Assembly (NCBI RefSeq): GCF_902826555.1
Contig: NZ_CADEFI010000008.1
Span: 33,696-97,695, forward strand
Reading direction: 5' to 3'
From: an uncultured Hyphomicrobium sp.
GTDB taxonomy: Bacteria; Pseudomonadota; Alphaproteobacteria; Rhizobiales; Hyphomicrobiaceae
DNA length: 64,000 nucleotides
A program made the position numbers and the translations under genes. The notes below the pieces were generated by a model. That model was not told the DNA's origin. It saw only the letters and a program-made list of their open reading frames with translations, and ran no database searches. This document shows, piece by piece, positions 2,784 through 62,394 of the stretch; the first letter of the stretch is position 1, and every line of letters starts with the position of its first letter.

Positions 2784-3347
2784 CTAACCACGTGCAGCGT
2801 CTTTCACCAATCGCCCGCGTTGTCCAGCCTCCGCGGCGCTCTCAGAGGCGCCGCCCTTGAGGTCCGGATCATCGAGCAGCTCCACGAGCCGGTTGCGCGC
2901 CCTGTTGACGCGGCTTTTGATCGTGCCGACAGCACACCCGCAAATTTCGGCTGCTTCTTCATAGGAAAAGCCCTCGGCACCAACCAGCACCAACGCCTCA
3001 CGCTGATCCGGCGGCAGTTTGGCGAGCGCAGTGCGGAAGTCGGCAAGATCGAGATAGCCATACTGCTCCGGCTGCACGGCGAGCGAGTTCTGGTACTGCT
3101 CGTCCGGATCGTCCACCTCGCGTTTGAGCTTGCGGTGCTGTGAAAAATAGACGTTGCGCAGGATCGTGAACAGCCACGCGCGAAAATTGGTGCCGGGTGT
3201 GAAGGAATCCCGGCTGTTCCACGCTTTCACCAGCGTTTCCTGCACCAGATCGTCGGCACGTGCGGGATCGTTGGCAAAACTGCGCGCAAACGCGCGCAGA
3301 TGCGGGATCGCCGCGACAAGGGATTGCTCGAAGTCAGGCGCTGCCAT
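2784..3347 (-). CDS. ecfG: EcfG-family extracytoplasmic-function sigma factor
   Basis: A 187-residue sigma factor with region 2 (RADDLVQETLVKAWNSRDSF, then FRAWLFTILRN) and region 4 (LPPDQREALVLVGAEGFSYE, then CAVGTIKSRVNRARNRL). This arrangement and the location next to nepR and phyR identify the general stress sigma factor of alphaproteobacteria. Its start lies two bases past the nepR stop, so the two are translationally linked, as expected for a sigma factor and its anti-sigma factor. It should read the GGAAC-N17-CGTT promoters found at this locus. Confidence 0.95.
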   Translation of the reverse strand: MAAPDFEQSLVAAIPHLRAFARSFANDPARADDLVQETLVKAWNSRDSFTPGTNFRAWLFTILRNVYFSQHRKLKREVDDPDEQYQNSLAVQPEQYGYLDLADFRTALAKLPPDQREALVLVGAEGFSYEEAAEICGCAVGTIKSRVNRARNRLVELLDDPDLKGGASESAAEAGQRGRLVKDAARG

Positions 3348-3349
3348 CT

Positions 3350-3604
3350 TCAGTCTTGACGCTCCCCGCCATCGTTATCCGACCGGGCGAAACCCGAGCT
3401 ACTCGTCTCAGCTTGCTTGAGTTGCTCGAGAAGAACCGTGAATTTCTTCGGCACTTCCTCCTTCACGACCTCTTCCCAGCTCTCGCGCAACTTGCGACCG
3501 AGCGCACCTTGGATTGCCGCGTCGACGCTGCCAGTTGGCTCGATGTTCATACTGCTCTCCGGCGCGGTGCTCTGAGCCGGCTGAACGGATTTTTGAGTGG
3601 TCAT
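3350..3604 (-). CDS. nepR: NepR anti-sigma factor
   Basis: Encodes 84 residues from the ATG at 3604, or 66 from an alternative ATG at 3550 that has a better ribosome site (GGAGAG six bases upstream). The core GALGRKLRESWEEVVKEEVP, followed by KKFTVLLEQLKQAE, is the two-helix NepR signature that clamps EcfG and is titrated by PhyR. A flexible Ser/Gly/Asp-rich tail follows. It is the first gene of the nepR-ecfG pair. A perfect EcfG promoter lies 270 bases upstream, implying a long leader. Confidence 0.93.
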   Translation of the reverse strand: MTTQKSVQPAQSTAPESSMNIEPTGSVDAAIQGALGRKLRESWEEVVKEEVPKKFTVLLEQLKQAETSSSGFARSDNDGGERQD

Positions 3605-3873
3605 CTCTTGTAGATCCCTCGGAACCTTCCCGCACAATCGACCCGATTGGATGAAACGGCGGCCTATAACGGCCTGACCGCGGCCTCCACGGCCTTTCAG
3701 GCCCCGTCTGTTAGTGCACAGGAGCGGCTACGCTTTTGCAGCCCTCGCGCGGCTTTCCCATTATTGCTGAGCCGAGCGCCCCTGTATTGCCCTCTCTTTC
3801 GGGTTTAGCTCTGCACGATAGCCGAGCAATTATAAAGACATAACTGGAATTTGGCGTTTCGTGCACAACGGAT

Positions 3874-3899
3874 AACGCATGGCATCGAGCTTGGGTTCC
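3874..3899 (-). promoter_or_regulatory. EcfG-type promoter reading towards nepR-ecfG
   Basis: GGAAC (3899-3895), 17 bases, CGTT (3877-3874) on the minus strand. No closer EcfG-type site lies before nepR, so this is probably the autoregulatory promoter with a leader of about 260 bases. It is back to back with the plus-strand promoter at 3929-3954; the two GGAAC boxes are 29 bases apart. Confidence 0.75.
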
Positions 3900-3928
3900 A
3901 ACATCGATCGATTGGTCCGCTGGAGCGC

Positions 3929-3954
3929 GGAACTCCCCCGCCGACACCGGCGTT
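3929..3954 (+). promoter_or_regulatory. EcfG-type promoter reading away from nepR, towards a hairpin and eutB
   Basis: GGAAC (3929-3933), 17 bases, CGTT (3951-3954) on the plus strand, with the same spacing as the phyR and nepR promoters. No convincing ORF starts in the next 300 bases before eutB. The expected start is about 3961, directly at the foot of an inverted repeat (GACGCT 3962-3967 with AGCGTC 4000-4005). Confidence 0.7.
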
Positions 3955-3960
3955 AACGGC

Positions 3961-4130
3961 GGACGCTGGAAGCTTGGCCAAGATTTGAACGCGCAGCCGA
4001 GCGTCACGCACAGAGAAAGCTGGCGCCACCCGCACCCCTCCCCGACCCTAGAGCACGGGTGACGTCATGCTCGTGGTGCCGGCGGGCAGCTCCCTCCCGA
4101 TCATGCCGCCGGCACCACACCTTTCTTAGA
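3961..4130 (+). ncRNA. candidate EcfG-controlled small RNA with C-rich loops
   Basis: The stretch runs from the predicted start of the 3929-3954 promoter to the end of the hairpin at 4073-4118. It opens with a stem-loop (GACGCT/AGCGTC enclosing the palindrome CTTGGCCAAG at 3973-3982). A C-rich stretch at about 4027-4046 (CACCCCTCCCC) follows, then a 13-bp GC-rich hairpin whose loop carries CTCCCTCCC, complementary to Shine-Dalgarno sequences. C-rich accessible loops are known from the Caulobacter stress RNA GsrN and from other alphaproteobacterial small RNAs. No good ORF fits. Alternatively this is the leader of eutB. Ends are approximate. Confidence 0.45.
4073..4127 (+). terminator. strong hairpin, possible terminator or eutB leader attenuator
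   Basis: Perfect 13-bp arms GTGGTGCCGGCGG (4073-4085) and CCGCCGGCACCAC (4106-4118) enclose a 20-base loop and are followed by ACCTTTCTT. The T-rich tail is interrupted and starts three bases after the stem, so termination could be partial. Nothing T-rich follows it on the minus strand, so it acts on plus-strand transcription. It lies about 155 bases before the eutB start. Confidence 0.55.
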
Positions 4131-4272
4131 CTTTTGTCCAGTACCGTGGAAAACCGTGGAGGTCGCAGGCGTTGCGTGCCGCTTCGGTCGGCATGCCGCC
4201 CAACAACCGAGCTTTGATTGCCGCAAAACCTTTCCTATGATGAAAGGCATGTCCGTGAGACGGGAGCGGCCC

Positions 4273-5658
4273 ATGTATCAAGCGACGTGGCAGAAAACGA
4301 CTTACCGGTTCGCCGACTTGAAGACGCTCATGGCCAAGGCCACGCCGTTGCGATCCGGTGACGTTCTGGCCGGTGTCGCAGCGACAAGTGCCGAGGAGAA
4401 CGTCGCCGCCAAGATGGCCCTTGCCGAGGTCCCCCTGAAGCGGTTCCTCAACGAGGCGCTGATCCCCTACGAAAGCGATGACGTCACGCGCCTGATCATG
4501 GATCGGCATGACGCCAACGCGTTCGCACTCGTCGCGCACATGACGGTGGGTGAATTTCGCGACTGGCTGCTCTCCGACAAGGCCGACACCAAAGCGCTCG
4601 GCAAGCTCGCACCCGGCCTCACGCCGGAAATGGTGGCGGCCGTCTCCAAGCTCATGCGCAACCAGGACTTGGTGCTCGCAGCGCGCAAGGTTTCCGTCAT
4701 CACGCGCTTCCGCGACACCATCGGCCTCAAAGGGCACCTGTCCGTGCGCCTTCAGCCCAACCATCCGACCGACGATCCCAAGGGCATCGCCGCCTCCGTC
4801 ATCGACGGCCTGATGTTCGGCTGTGGCGACGCCGTGATCGGTATCAATCCCGCGACGGACAACGTCGGCGCCATCATCGACATGCTGTCGATGCTGGATC
4901 GCATGATCGAGCGCCTCGAGATCCCGACACAGAGTTGCGTCCTGACCCACGTCACGACCTCCATCGAAGCCATCTCGCGCGGCGCGCCCGTCGACCTTGT
5001 TTTCCAGTCCATCGGCGGCACGGAGGCACTCAACTCGTCATTCGGCGTCACTCTTCCCATCCTCAAGGAAGGCCGCGAGGCCGCGCTCTCTCTCAAACGA
5101 GGGACGGTCGGCGACAACGTCATGTACTTCGAGACCGGCCAGGGTGCGGCCCTCTCCGCCGACGCCCACCACGGCGTCGACCAGCAGACCTGCGAGGCTC
5201 GCGCTTACGCCGTGGCCCGCGAGTTCCACCCGCTGCTCGTCAACACCGTCGTCGGCTTTATCGGCCCCGAGTATCTCTACAGCGGCAAGGAGATCATCCG
5301 CGCCGGCCTCGAGGATCATTTCTGCGGCAAGATGCTCGGCGTGCCGATGGGCTGCGACGTTTGCTACACCAACCACGCAGAGGCCGATCAGGACGACATG
5401 GACACGCTGCTCACGCTGCTCGGCGCGGCGGGCGTGACGTTCGTCATGGGGATCCCCGGCGCCGATGACATCATGCTCAACTACCAGTCGACCTCCTTTC
5501 ACGACTCCCTTTACGTGCGCGAGGTGCTGGGCCTGAAGCGCGCCCCCGAGTTCGAGGAATGGCTCGAACGCATGGGCCTCGCCGACAAAAGCGGCAAGGT
5601 CATCAGCGAAAAGCCGACCAAAGCCCTGCTCGAGCACGCTGCGGGAGGTGTGGCATGA
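4273..5658 (+). CDS. eutB: ethanolamine ammonia-lyase, heavy subunit
   Basis: Encodes 461 residues, near the usual 453-465. EutB is the TIM-barrel catalytic subunit of the adenosylcobalamin-dependent enzyme that splits ethanolamine into acetaldehyde and ammonia. Family blocks seen include LSVRLQPNHPTDDPKGIAAS, GCGDAVIGINPATDN, FFQSIGG-like FQSIGGTEALN, MYFETGQGAALSADAHHGVD and MGCDVCYTNHAEADQDDMD. The start at 4273 has GGGAGC six bases upstream. The last codon overlaps the eutC start (ATGA). No EutA reactivase, shell proteins or EutR occur nearby, so this is a compartment-free version of the pathway. The permease gene follows two genes downstream. Confidence 0.97.
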   Translation: MYQATWQKTTYRFADLKTLMAKATPLRSGDVLAGVAATSAEENVAAKMALAEVPLKRFLNEALIPYESDDVTRLIMDRHDANAFALVAHMTVGEFRDWLLSDKADTKALGKLAPGLTPEMVAAVSKLMRNQDLVLAARKVSVITRFRDTIGLKGHLSVRLQPNHPTDDPKGIAASVIDGLMFGCGDAVIGINPATDNVGAIIDMLSMLDRMIERLEIPTQSCVLTHVTTSIEAISRGAPVDLVFQSIGGTEALNSSFGVTLPILKEGREAALSLKRGTVGDNVMYFETGQGAALSADAHHGVDQQTCEARAYAVAREFHPLLVNTVVGFIGPEYLYSGKEIIRAGLEDHFCGKMLGVPMGCDVCYTNHAEADQDDMDTLLTLLGAAGVTFVMGIPGADDIMLNYQSTSFHDSLYVREVLGLKRAPEFEEWLERMGLADKSGKVISEKPTKALLEHAAGGVA

Positions 5659-6434
5659 CGCCGGACGATCCCTGGATCGCGCTCAAGCGCTTTACCGACG
5701 CCCGCATCGGGCTCGGCCGTTCCGGCTCCGGGATGCCGACCCGCGAGGTTCTCAATTTTTCCATGGCGCACGCCCAGGCCCGCGACGCGGTCAAGACCCC
5801 GATCGAATGGCCGTCGATCGAAAAGGAAATCGCCGCCTTGGGGCTCGAGACGCAGCGCATCGCCAGCGCCGCGCCCGACCGCGATACCTATCTGCGTCGC
5901 CCGGACCTGGGACGCCGTCTCGGCCCTGAATCGCGCCAGGTGCTGTCGCAGCGCTCGCCGTCCGAAACCGACCTCCTAATCATCGTCGGCGATGGCCTGT
6001 CCTCGACCGCGGTGGCAGCCAATGCCATCCCAACCATCAAGGCGCTGCTGCCGCATGTTCGCAAGAATGAATGGCGTCTCGGCCCCGTTCTGCTCGCCAC
6101 CCAGGCTCGCGTCGCGCTCTCGGACGATGCCGGGGAGTTTCTGAAGGCCCGCGCAGCTGTCATGCTGATCGGAGAGCGCCCGGGGCTTTCATCCCCCGAC
6201 AGCCTCGGCGCCTACCTGACGTGGGAGCCGCGCGTCGGCCGCAAGGACGGCGAGCGCAACTGCATTTCCAACATCCGCATCGGCGGGCTATCCGCGGATG
6301 AGGCCGCCTTCAAGATCGCCTGGCTCCTGCGCGAGGCGTTTCGCAGGCAGCTGACCGGCGTCAACCTCAAGGACGAGAGCAACTACCAGCTCGGGGCCGG
6401 CAAGCGCCCCGACGCCCTCGCCCGCCCCTCCTAA
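5655..6434 (+). CDS. eutC: ethanolamine ammonia-lyase, light subunit
   Basis: Encodes 259 residues; EutC helps bind adenosylcobalamin next to EutB. The family pattern is clear: WIALKRFTDARIGLGRSG near the start, LNFSMAHAQARDAV, DLLIIVGDGLSSTAVAANA in the middle, and LTWEPRVGRKDGERNCISNI followed by a helical C-terminus. The ATG overlaps the eutB stop by four bases and has GGGAGGTG upstream, so the subunits are coupled in translation and made in similar amounts. Confidence 0.97.
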   Translation: MTPDDPWIALKRFTDARIGLGRSGSGMPTREVLNFSMAHAQARDAVKTPIEWPSIEKEIAALGLETQRIASAAPDRDTYLRRPDLGRRLGPESRQVLSQRSPSETDLLIIVGDGLSSTAVAANAIPTIKALLPHVRKNEWRLGPVLLATQARVALSDDAGEFLKARAAVMLIGERPGLSSPDSLGAYLTWEPRVGRKDGERNCISNIRIGGLSADEAAFKIAWLLREAFRRQLTGVNLKDESNYQLGAGKRPDALARPS

Positions 6435-6536
6435 AACGCCTGAAGACATTCCGAATACCCAGTGCTCCTGGTCGGTAAGGCCCTGTTCACCAACACGGCG
6501 TAAGTTGTCCGTGGTCTGTAAGCAGAAGCCTGAACC

Positions 6537-46936: not shown

Positions 46937-47626
46937 TTACTCGTTGGCGAGGTCGGCAAGCCGCGGAACGTCCCGAAGCTTCACCGTCGTTCCTCCCTGT
47001 TCGACATCGATGACCTGCATCTCCCGCAGCTTGGTCAGCGTACGGCTGACCGTCTCGATGGTAAGACCCAGAAGATCGGCGATGTCGCTGCGCCGCATGG
47101 CGAGCTTGACCACGCCCTTCGAACCTTCACCGCCGCGGCGATGCAGTGCGAGCAGGAACGCAGCAACACGCTCGATAGCGCTACGCTGCCCGACGGTGAC
47201 GAGAAGGCTCCGTGCCGCCACCAGGTCCTGGCACACGGACTTATAGAGTTTGAGCGCCAGCGACGCGTCGGTTTCTGCAAGGCTCTCGAGGGCCGACGCC
47301 GAGAAGCAGCGCACCTTCGACGCACACGTCGCCTGCGCGCTCATAATGTGTTCGCCGAGCACACCAAGCCCGATATAGTCGCCCGGATAGGCAAAATCGA
47401 TGATCCGCCGCCGGCCGTCGAAGAGCGTCTTGTAGATGGCGATGACGCCATCCTCGACCCGGTACACATGCGTCCGCTGATCGCCCTCGCAGAACACGTG
47501 CTCCTTGGCCTCGAGCCTGCGTTCCGATGCCTGTTGCAGGCGGTCATCGAGCGCCCGCCCCCCTCGGGACTCCTGGCGGAACGACTGCATGTAGGGGCTT
47601 GTCTCAGACGTGTTGATCGCGAGCAT
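46937..47626 (-). CDS. Crp/Fnr-family regulator, FixK-like
   Basis: Encodes 229 residues from the ATG at 47626 (GAGGAGAG upstream). The N-terminal cyclic-nucleotide-type barrel is FCEGDQRTHVYRVEDGVIAI. The HTH is RRSDIADLLGLTIETVSRTL, with the Glu-x-x-Ser-Arg recognition pattern of FNR and FixK. The N-terminal Cys cluster of FNR is absent, so oxygen sensing is probably indirect. Crp/FNR-type palindromes lie at 47774 and 48754 among respiration genes, and an OmpR-type repeat lies upstream of this gene. Confidence 0.9.
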   Translation of the reverse strand: MLAINTSETSPYMQSFRQESRGGRALDDRLQQASERRLEAKEHVFCEGDQRTHVYRVEDGVIAIYKTLFDGRRRIIDFAYPGDYIGLGVLGEHIMSAQATCASKVRCFSASALESLAETDASLALKLYKSVCQDLVAARSLLVTVGQRSAIERVAAFLLALHRRGGEGSKGVVKLAMRRSDIADLLGLTIETVSRTLTKLREMQVIDVEQGGTTVKLRDVPRLADLANE

Positions 47627-62219: not shown

Positions 62220-62394
62220 TGTGCTTGCCTCCCTCATCTTCATCTTCGTCGTGCACGAGGGGAAGCCGCGCCGCGGCGTCGAACCGTGCCTTGTTTCCCG
62301 GGCGAAGCGCATAAACGAGCACGCCCGCCATCACCGTTCCGAAGATGGTCATCGCCACGATCTGCGCACATCCGGCAATTGCTTCGTACGTCAT
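62206..62394 (-). CDS. ccoQ: cbb3 oxidase subunit CcoQ
   Basis: Encodes 62 residues with a single membrane segment (AMTIFGTVMAGVLVYALRPG) and an acidic His-containing tail. Position between ccoO and ccoP and size identify CcoQ, which stabilises the complex. GAGGGA precedes the ATG; the stop overlaps the ccoP start. Confidence 0.9.
   Translation of the reverse strand: MTYEAIAGCAQIVAMTIFGTVMAGVLVYALRPGNKARFDAAARLPLVHDEDEDEGGKHNGRT

Follow-up and report, generated by a model that had tools for sequence, protein, structure and literature searches.

The window, by which we mean the whole 64,000-nt stretch of DNA that was analysed, comes from the genome of an uncultured Hyphomicrobium sp. (contig NZ_CADEFI010000008.1; assembly of 81 contigs, 3.72 Mb). 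It carries the genes of the general stress switch, phyR, ecfG and nepR, on the minus strand, and a putative small RNA gene followed by eutB on the plus strand. The features that are used in the following analysis are listed below (coordinates in the window; strand; description).

1793-2653; minus; phyR, anti-anti-sigma response regulator (PhyR_sigma2, PhyR_sigma-like and Response_reg domains)
2717-2742; minus; GGAAC-N17-CGTT motif match facing phyR
2784-3347; minus; ecfG, general stress sigma factor (Sigma70_r2 and Sigma70_r4_2 domains)
3350-3604; minus; nepR, anti-sigma factor (Pfam PF18557, E 6.9e-10)
3874-3899; minus; divergent EcfG-type promoter facing nepR-ecfG (motif match)
3929-3954; plus; EcfG-type promoter of the putative RNA gene (motif; boxes invariant in 8/8 genomes)
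3961-4018; plus; predicted start (about 3961) and variable leader (30% mean pairwise identity)
4019-4070; plus; hairpin H1 (stem of 14 pairs and a single bulge; in the window copy, one pair is a C-A mismatch)
4033-4055; plus; apical C-rich loop of H1, CACCCCTCCCCGACCCTAGAGCA, putative seed (99% mean identity)
4073-4118; plus; hairpin H2 (from the fold; 13-bp GC stem), at which the RNA may end
4090-4098; plus; CTCCCTCCC in the loop of H2, putative second seed (kept in 6/8 genomes)
4201-4242; plus; promoter-like block of eutB, CAACAAC..AGCTTTGAT...AACC.TTT.CTAT (common to the three eutB genomes)
4273-5658; plus; eutB, the variable downstream neighbour (PF06751, E 1.2e-220)

The comparisons within the genus were performed with eight genomes (the H. 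zavarzinii group), namely the genome of the window and seven relatives (G001-G007). The first-pass annotation of this DNA had proposed a plus-strand promoter of the form GGAAC-N17-CGTT, and this motif is indeed present at 3929-3954, upstream of the non-coding block at 4019-4120. By itself, the motif is not rare in the window: there are six matches (1.4 expected), and at least six were obtained in 2 of 100 shuffles. Three of these six are at the stress locus (3929-3954 on the plus strand, 3874-3899 and 2717-2742 on the minus strand). The RNA promoter is separated by 29 bp from the promoter facing nepR, and the latter was likewise found in all seven relatives. Each of the eight copies of the block has a GGAAC-N16/17-CGTTA promoter 54-97 nt upstream, and its GGAAC and CGTTA boxes are invariant in all eight genomes (mean pairwise identity, 100%), as against a mean pairwise identity of 45% for the spacer between them. 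The RNA promoter is thus convincing because of the conservation of its boxes relative to the spacer, and not because of the rarity of the motif. The three other GGAAC-N-CGTT matches are located at 46965-46993 and 62314-62340, two of them overlapping on opposite strands; these stretches are coding-like by eye, and the matches look like chance.

When the DNA sequence of 3861-4150 was searched against 60 genomes, a match was obtained in eight, that is, the genome of the window and 7/7 relatives of the genus, and in none of the 52 genomes from other genera. The matched part in the relatives was only about 4013-4126, with 85-95% identity to the window copy. The search was repeated over the genus and gave a single copy in each of the 8/8 genomes, and the block adjoins nepR and ecfG in every one of them. 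EcfG is 84-91% identical in the seven relatives, and phyR lies behind ecfG in the window and in five of the seven (the stretches of G003 and G006 ended short of phyR). In the genus, the RNA takes the divergent slot beside nepR-ecfG, with phyR behind ecfG. The mean pairwise identity is 30% for the leader, 92% for H1, 99% for the H1 loop, 86% for H2, and 24% for the 3' flank (the segment borders for these figures are one base off from the coordinates in the list above). Given the low identity of the spacer, the leader and the flank, the flanks have had time to drift, and the boxes and the block were held.

The same two hairpins fold in all eight blocks (z values from -3.75 to -6.53), and for each of the eight all 200 shuffles were less stable. 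Standard pairs occupy 97.6% of the 255 cells, versus 28.6-51.2% when the partners were slid. In the strand test, 249 of the 255 cells pair on the plus strand versus 234 on the minus strand (18 G-U versus 3 A-C cells), and the G-U changes point to the plus strand for the RNA. The stem cells of H1 are paired at 97.3% over the eight genomes. Two pairs of H1 are altered on both sides, a number which was reached by 39 of 500 letter shuffles, with three such pairs seen in the +1 and +3 slides; this covariation signal is weak, because the block is too conserved and offers little variation. The conservation next to nepR-ecfG that was to be sought in related genomes was found, the hairpins and the promoter being kept in 8/8 with the covariation weak as described.

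The loop of H1 is the best conserved part of the block, ahead of the CTCCCTCCC loop. Across the genomes it can be written as CACCCC(C)UCCCCGACCCUAGAGCA, since the other seven carry one extra C compared with the window copy. A C-rich stretch had been noticed here previously; it is present at 4033-4055, but it is actually the apical loop of H1, a hairpin which the earlier reading had missed. The 13-bp GC hairpin with CTCCCTCCC in its loop is as had been described, with the stem arms at 4073-4085 and 4106-4118 and the loop letters at 4090-4098. The loop of H2 contains CUCCCUCCC; CTCCCTCCC is kept in 6/8 genomes and is replaced by CTTCCCTCCC in G004 and AACCTCCCA in G001, and CCUCCC, which is common to the H1 and H2 loops, is retained in this second loop in 8/8 genomes despite the changes in detail. 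The upper stem of H2 is divergent in G001, G002, and G004, and the long stem still folds in all three.

An open frame spans the block in several genomes, and the translations are partly similar, which would fit a small protein encoded by the block. However, the starts are not conserved, and the frame is shifted in the window by the loss of one base (the missing C) and in other genomes by single-base indels, so that no reading frame is conserved among the eight; the earlier statement that no ORF fits agrees with this, and we give a small protein next to no probability. The stem-loop that had been placed at the predicted start does appear in the fold of the window (leader z = -1.04), but it is conserved in neither sequence nor structure: the leader z values range from -4.4 to +1.1 over the eight genomes, and no common sequence and, by eye, no common fold were seen among them. 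Counted from the predicted start to 8 nt past the end of the block, the RNA would measure 168 nt in the window (159-201 nt across the eight genomes), in keeping with the 165-175 bases suggested by the first-pass annotation. Note that no consistent U-tract was found 3' of H2 in the eight genomes; thus, the 3' end of the RNA is unproven.

Since a consistent U-tract is missing after H2 and a coding start lies about 113-231 nt past the block in 8/8 genomes, read-through is possible. The block might then be an EcfG-driven structured 5' leader (or give a leader-derived RNA) with eutB or the GGDEF regulator as its target in cis, and both the nearby coding start and the lack of a convincing terminator after H2 are consistent with such a leader. 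However, the next gene is eutB in only three of the eight genomes (the window, G001, and G005) and a response-regulator GGDEF gene in the other five (G002, G003, G004, G006, and G007), and the identity drops to 24% directly after H2. Moreover, each of these genes has its own conserved upstream element. The promoter-like block of eutB contains a weak sigma-70-like match at 4214-4241, and a GTAA-N7-TTCAC box, probably the GGDEF gene's own promoter or operator, is kept upstream of the GGDEF gene in 7/7 aligned genes with or without eutBC (seven genes were aligned, as the stretch of G005 ends before the GGDEF gene). A stand-alone RNA is favoured by the difference in downstream genes and by the conserved element that each of them keeps upstream, and we consider the leader explanation unlikely. 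A leader of eutBC in particular, such as an ethanolamine switch, was rejected, because eutBC is missing at this place in five of the eight RNA-bearing genomes.

The GTAA-N7-TTCAC box lies within 6435-6536 in the window, and also in the gaps between the block and the GGDEF gene or between eutC and the GGDEF gene in loci L003-L007 and L091. The eutB(C) genes (4273-6434 in the window) separate the RNA gene from the GGDEF gene in 3/8 genomes and are absent there in 5/8. As the GGDEF box is kept regardless, eutBC can be viewed as having been inserted or deleted between two conserved units, namely the RNA gene and the upstream element of the GGDEF gene.

The distribution of the RNA was then compared with known families. 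No Rfam family reached the gathering score in the whole window, and the search of 3600-4300 up to E 10 gave four chance-level matches, none of which was alpha-r14, for which Rfam contains a model. Genome searches with a covariance model of the block (R1) were performed with the strict filters of Infernal, which lose weak matches; under these conditions, the genomes with a match numbered 8 out of 103 for the family and 4 out of 397 for the order. Every one belongs to the own genus, and none of the 95 family genomes outside it gave a match. The scores in the genus members were 108-126 bits, and with the filters off the best match on 20 loci was 17.6 bits (E 0.21). When 84,980 species genomes were searched for the 20-mer core of the H1 loop, it was found in five stretches, each with Hyphomicrobium or Hyphomicrobiales in its title; this collection may omit near relatives, the genome of the window, G006, and G007 being outside the match list. 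The core is present in H. zavarzinii ATCC 27496. In the open-licence PMC literature, no paper on a Hyphomicrobium small RNA at nepR-ecfG was seen among the matches listed (Hyphomicrobium and sRNA were never jointly required as search terms). Unmatched in the Rfam release that was used, the RNA is in our view a new family whose kind of role is already known.

The nearest model for this role is GsrN of Caulobacter; the comparisons with it and with the rhizobial RNAs below refer to excerpts of the cited papers. GsrN is an EcfG/sigma-T-dependent RNA of about 100 nt that pairs with the leader of katG via a C-rich 5' loop and thereby activates katG (PMC5869019). GsrN-like RNAs were also predicted in other Alphaproteobacteria (Rhizobiaceae, Brucella, Rhodopseudomonas, and Bradyrhizobium) from the promoter and a position close to the stress locus, and some of these predictions are accompanied by transcript data (PMC5869019). 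The Hyphomicrobium RNA has both of these properties, an EcfG site and the proximity to the stress locus; unlike those predictions, as excerpted, it comes in addition with conservation over eight species genomes and a defined two-hairpin structure. As in GsrN (PMC5869019), the EcfG-type promoter is near the consensus, here with boxes invariant in 8/8, and the RNA is non-coding, has a C-rich loop, and lies near ecfG-nepR-phyR (EcfG and NepR adjacent in 8/8 here). The layout is different. In contrast to GsrN as described in the excerpts, whose C-rich loop is near the 5' end, the Hyphomicrobium RNA has two C-rich hairpin loops, in H1 and H2, behind a leader of 48-91 nt, the first beginning 62-105 nt into the predicted transcript, and its predicted length is 159-201 nt versus about 100 nt. 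It also differs in that no consistent U-tract is present and in that pairing of H1 with katG gets no support (see below).

Homology to GsrN was examined with a single comparator, L163, instead of the C. crescentus sequence. L163 is a putative GsrN-type RNA of another alphaproteobacterium (G754, near 1500) with an EcfG promoter, the loop CGCCCCCCCGACTTGAG, and a U-tract hairpin near phyR; from its promoter, its C-run loop and the nearby phyR, it looks like a true GsrN-type RNA. The local alignment of L163 with the Hyphomicrobium RNA scored 16.0; shuffles averaged 16.2, and 575 of 1,000 scored as high. R1 on L163 gave 12.7 bits (E 1.6). Only a C-run followed by GAC (CCCCGAC) is common to the two. 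The parallel with GsrN that had been drawn earlier thus stands for the regulation, the position and the C-rich loop, but is not accompanied by detectable homology to L163, the alignment being at the level of shuffles. Judged from sequence, the RNA would work like GsrN in its control, membership in the GsrN family being unsupported by the alignment, and by analogy it is probably like GsrN in pairing with mRNA as well. That the RNA and GsrN of Caulobacter descend from one ancestral RNA, now unrecognisable save for the seed, would concern the origin only and is compatible with the mechanism proposed below. The same regulator, the same genomic neighbourhood and the CCCCGAC stretch shared with the C-rich loop of L163 near phyR agree with such a descent; however, the shuffle-level alignment, the score of R1 in L163 compared with that in the members (12.7 versus 108-126 bits), the different layout and terminator of L163, and the lack of an R1 match in the 95 family genomes outside the genus (strict filters) make it very unlikely.

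Patterns for GsrN-type RNAs were also searched directly. When the pattern made from the target letters given in PMC5869019 was run over 385 genomes, 27 of them gave 30 matches in total. A promoter-like site, though imperfect, lay 111 nt upstream of one match and was discounted. With the promoter-plus-C-run pattern, three matches were obtained in 2 of the 385 genomes, one being L163. A looser pattern matched in 10 of 397 order genomes, and the sole match beside stress-switch genes was set aside, as it resembles a phyR promoter.

The other RNA to be compared is NfeR1/alpha-r14 (SmelA075), which, according to excerpts of PMC10746234 and PMC3927594, has three CCUCCUCCC loops and is under RpoD-type, LsrB/NtrC control. 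The Hyphomicrobium RNA resembles it in having several hairpins, each with a similar anti-Shine-Dalgarno-like C-rich loop motif, and differs, as far as these excerpts go, in having two conserved hairpins, with the loops CCCCCUCCCCGACCCUAGAG and CUCCCUCCC, behind an EcfG-type promoter.

Pairing with the ribosome sites of targets had been suggested as well. For the H1 loop, a 14-base loop complement was searched with at most one mismatch, and no orthologous site was found among the 17 off-locus matches. The katG gene was found in 6/8 genomes, and in each of the six most of the 20 background genes were better partners of H1 than the katG start region. For H2, the number of the 20 background genes that paired better than katG was at most two in the window, G003, and G007, five in G006, 13 in G004, and 17 in G001. 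The nepR ribosome site is GAGGGA in 8/8 genus genomes, in 5/8 inside GGTTCCGAGGGA (window 3605-3626, minus strand); this may reflect targeting by the C-rich loops or something else. The pairing at nepR was clearly better than that of shuffled loops only in G001 (H1, 2 of 500) and G002 (19 and 24 of 500), and no clear gain was seen in the other 6/8. L046, one locus from the RNA-less genus whose EcfG is the most similar, has a different nepR site, and a locus of genus g24 without the RNA (L047) has GAGGGA as well. Note that these target tests are of low power, because the backgrounds were only 20-25 start regions of the window. Neither katG nor nepR received support from them as a specific target, and we infer the pairing with mRNA from the loops and from the known RNAs.

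The RNA might instead act mainly by binding a protein via the near-invariant H1 loop, as a sponge or scaffold. The about 24 near-invariant loop bases exceed the need of a single seed, and the target tests turned up no mRNA. Yet CCUCCC is in both loops, the second of which varies and keeps CCUCCC in 8/8, and the known C-rich-loop RNAs of this class act by pairing, according to excerpts of PMC5869019 and PMC10746234; we think protein binding improbable.

The proposal of an EcfG-dependent RNA encoded back to back with nepR-ecfG is borne out in the eight genomes by the invariant boxes, the synteny, the structure and the absence of a conserved frame. From the sequences, we have great confidence that the RNA gene is real and high confidence that it is EcfG-driven. 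It is likely that the locus is a stand-alone small non-coding RNA gene, driven by EcfG, whose RNA pairs through C-rich loop seeds with G-rich mRNA sites; for the mode of action as such, C-rich seeds on mRNAs are the best reading, in which we have moderate confidence. A plus-strand RNA with a length of about 160-200 nt, in the window near 165 nt, would be transcribed by RNA polymerase with sigma-EcfG, and because of this sigma factor it would be made together with nepR-ecfG upon firing of the PhyR-NepR-EcfG switch. The two stems would display the C-rich loops ACCCCCUCCCCGACCCUAGAG and CUCCCUCCC as seeds, which may base-pair with several mRNAs at G-rich sites that resemble Shine-Dalgarno sequences and most likely lower the translation of the targets under stress, possibly with assistance by Hfq (encoded in 8/8 genomes). 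Such a mode would be GsrN-like (EcfG-driven, with a C-rich seed) and would include repeated anti-Shine-Dalgarno-like loops as in the rhizobial NfeR1.

In an extended form, the RNA would be a genus-specific family that arose beside nepR-ecfG with two different C-rich seeds, as a post-transcriptional arm and perhaps a feedback on the switch; in the feedback version, the loops would pair with the nepR ribosome site, less NepR would be made, and the response would be locked on. The different nepR site of L046 (one locus) is in line with such a feedback. However, GAGGGA is also at nepR of L047 without the RNA, and the pairing energies do not single out nepR; we consider this extension quite unlikely.

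The alphaproteobacterial general stress response is well understood at the level of transcription, and GsrN is, to our knowledge, the only example of an RNA arm of it worked out in detail. If the locus in Hyphomicrobium encodes a second RNA in this control slot, seemingly unrelated to the first, this would point to repeated recruitment of C-rich small RNAs by EcfG systems; the gene offers a predicted transcript, a promoter and two seed loops for testing.

Among the 67 nepR loci from other genera of the family, 61 were examined, and a loose outward promoter motif was found at 26 of them. By eye, many of these promoters face phyR, and others face CsbD-like, ferritin-like, or kinase-like genes, with some ambiguous cases. 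A divergent EcfG-type promoter faces a CsbD-like gene in L046 (about 2061-2368) and L081, and a ferritin-like gene in L029 (all by eye).
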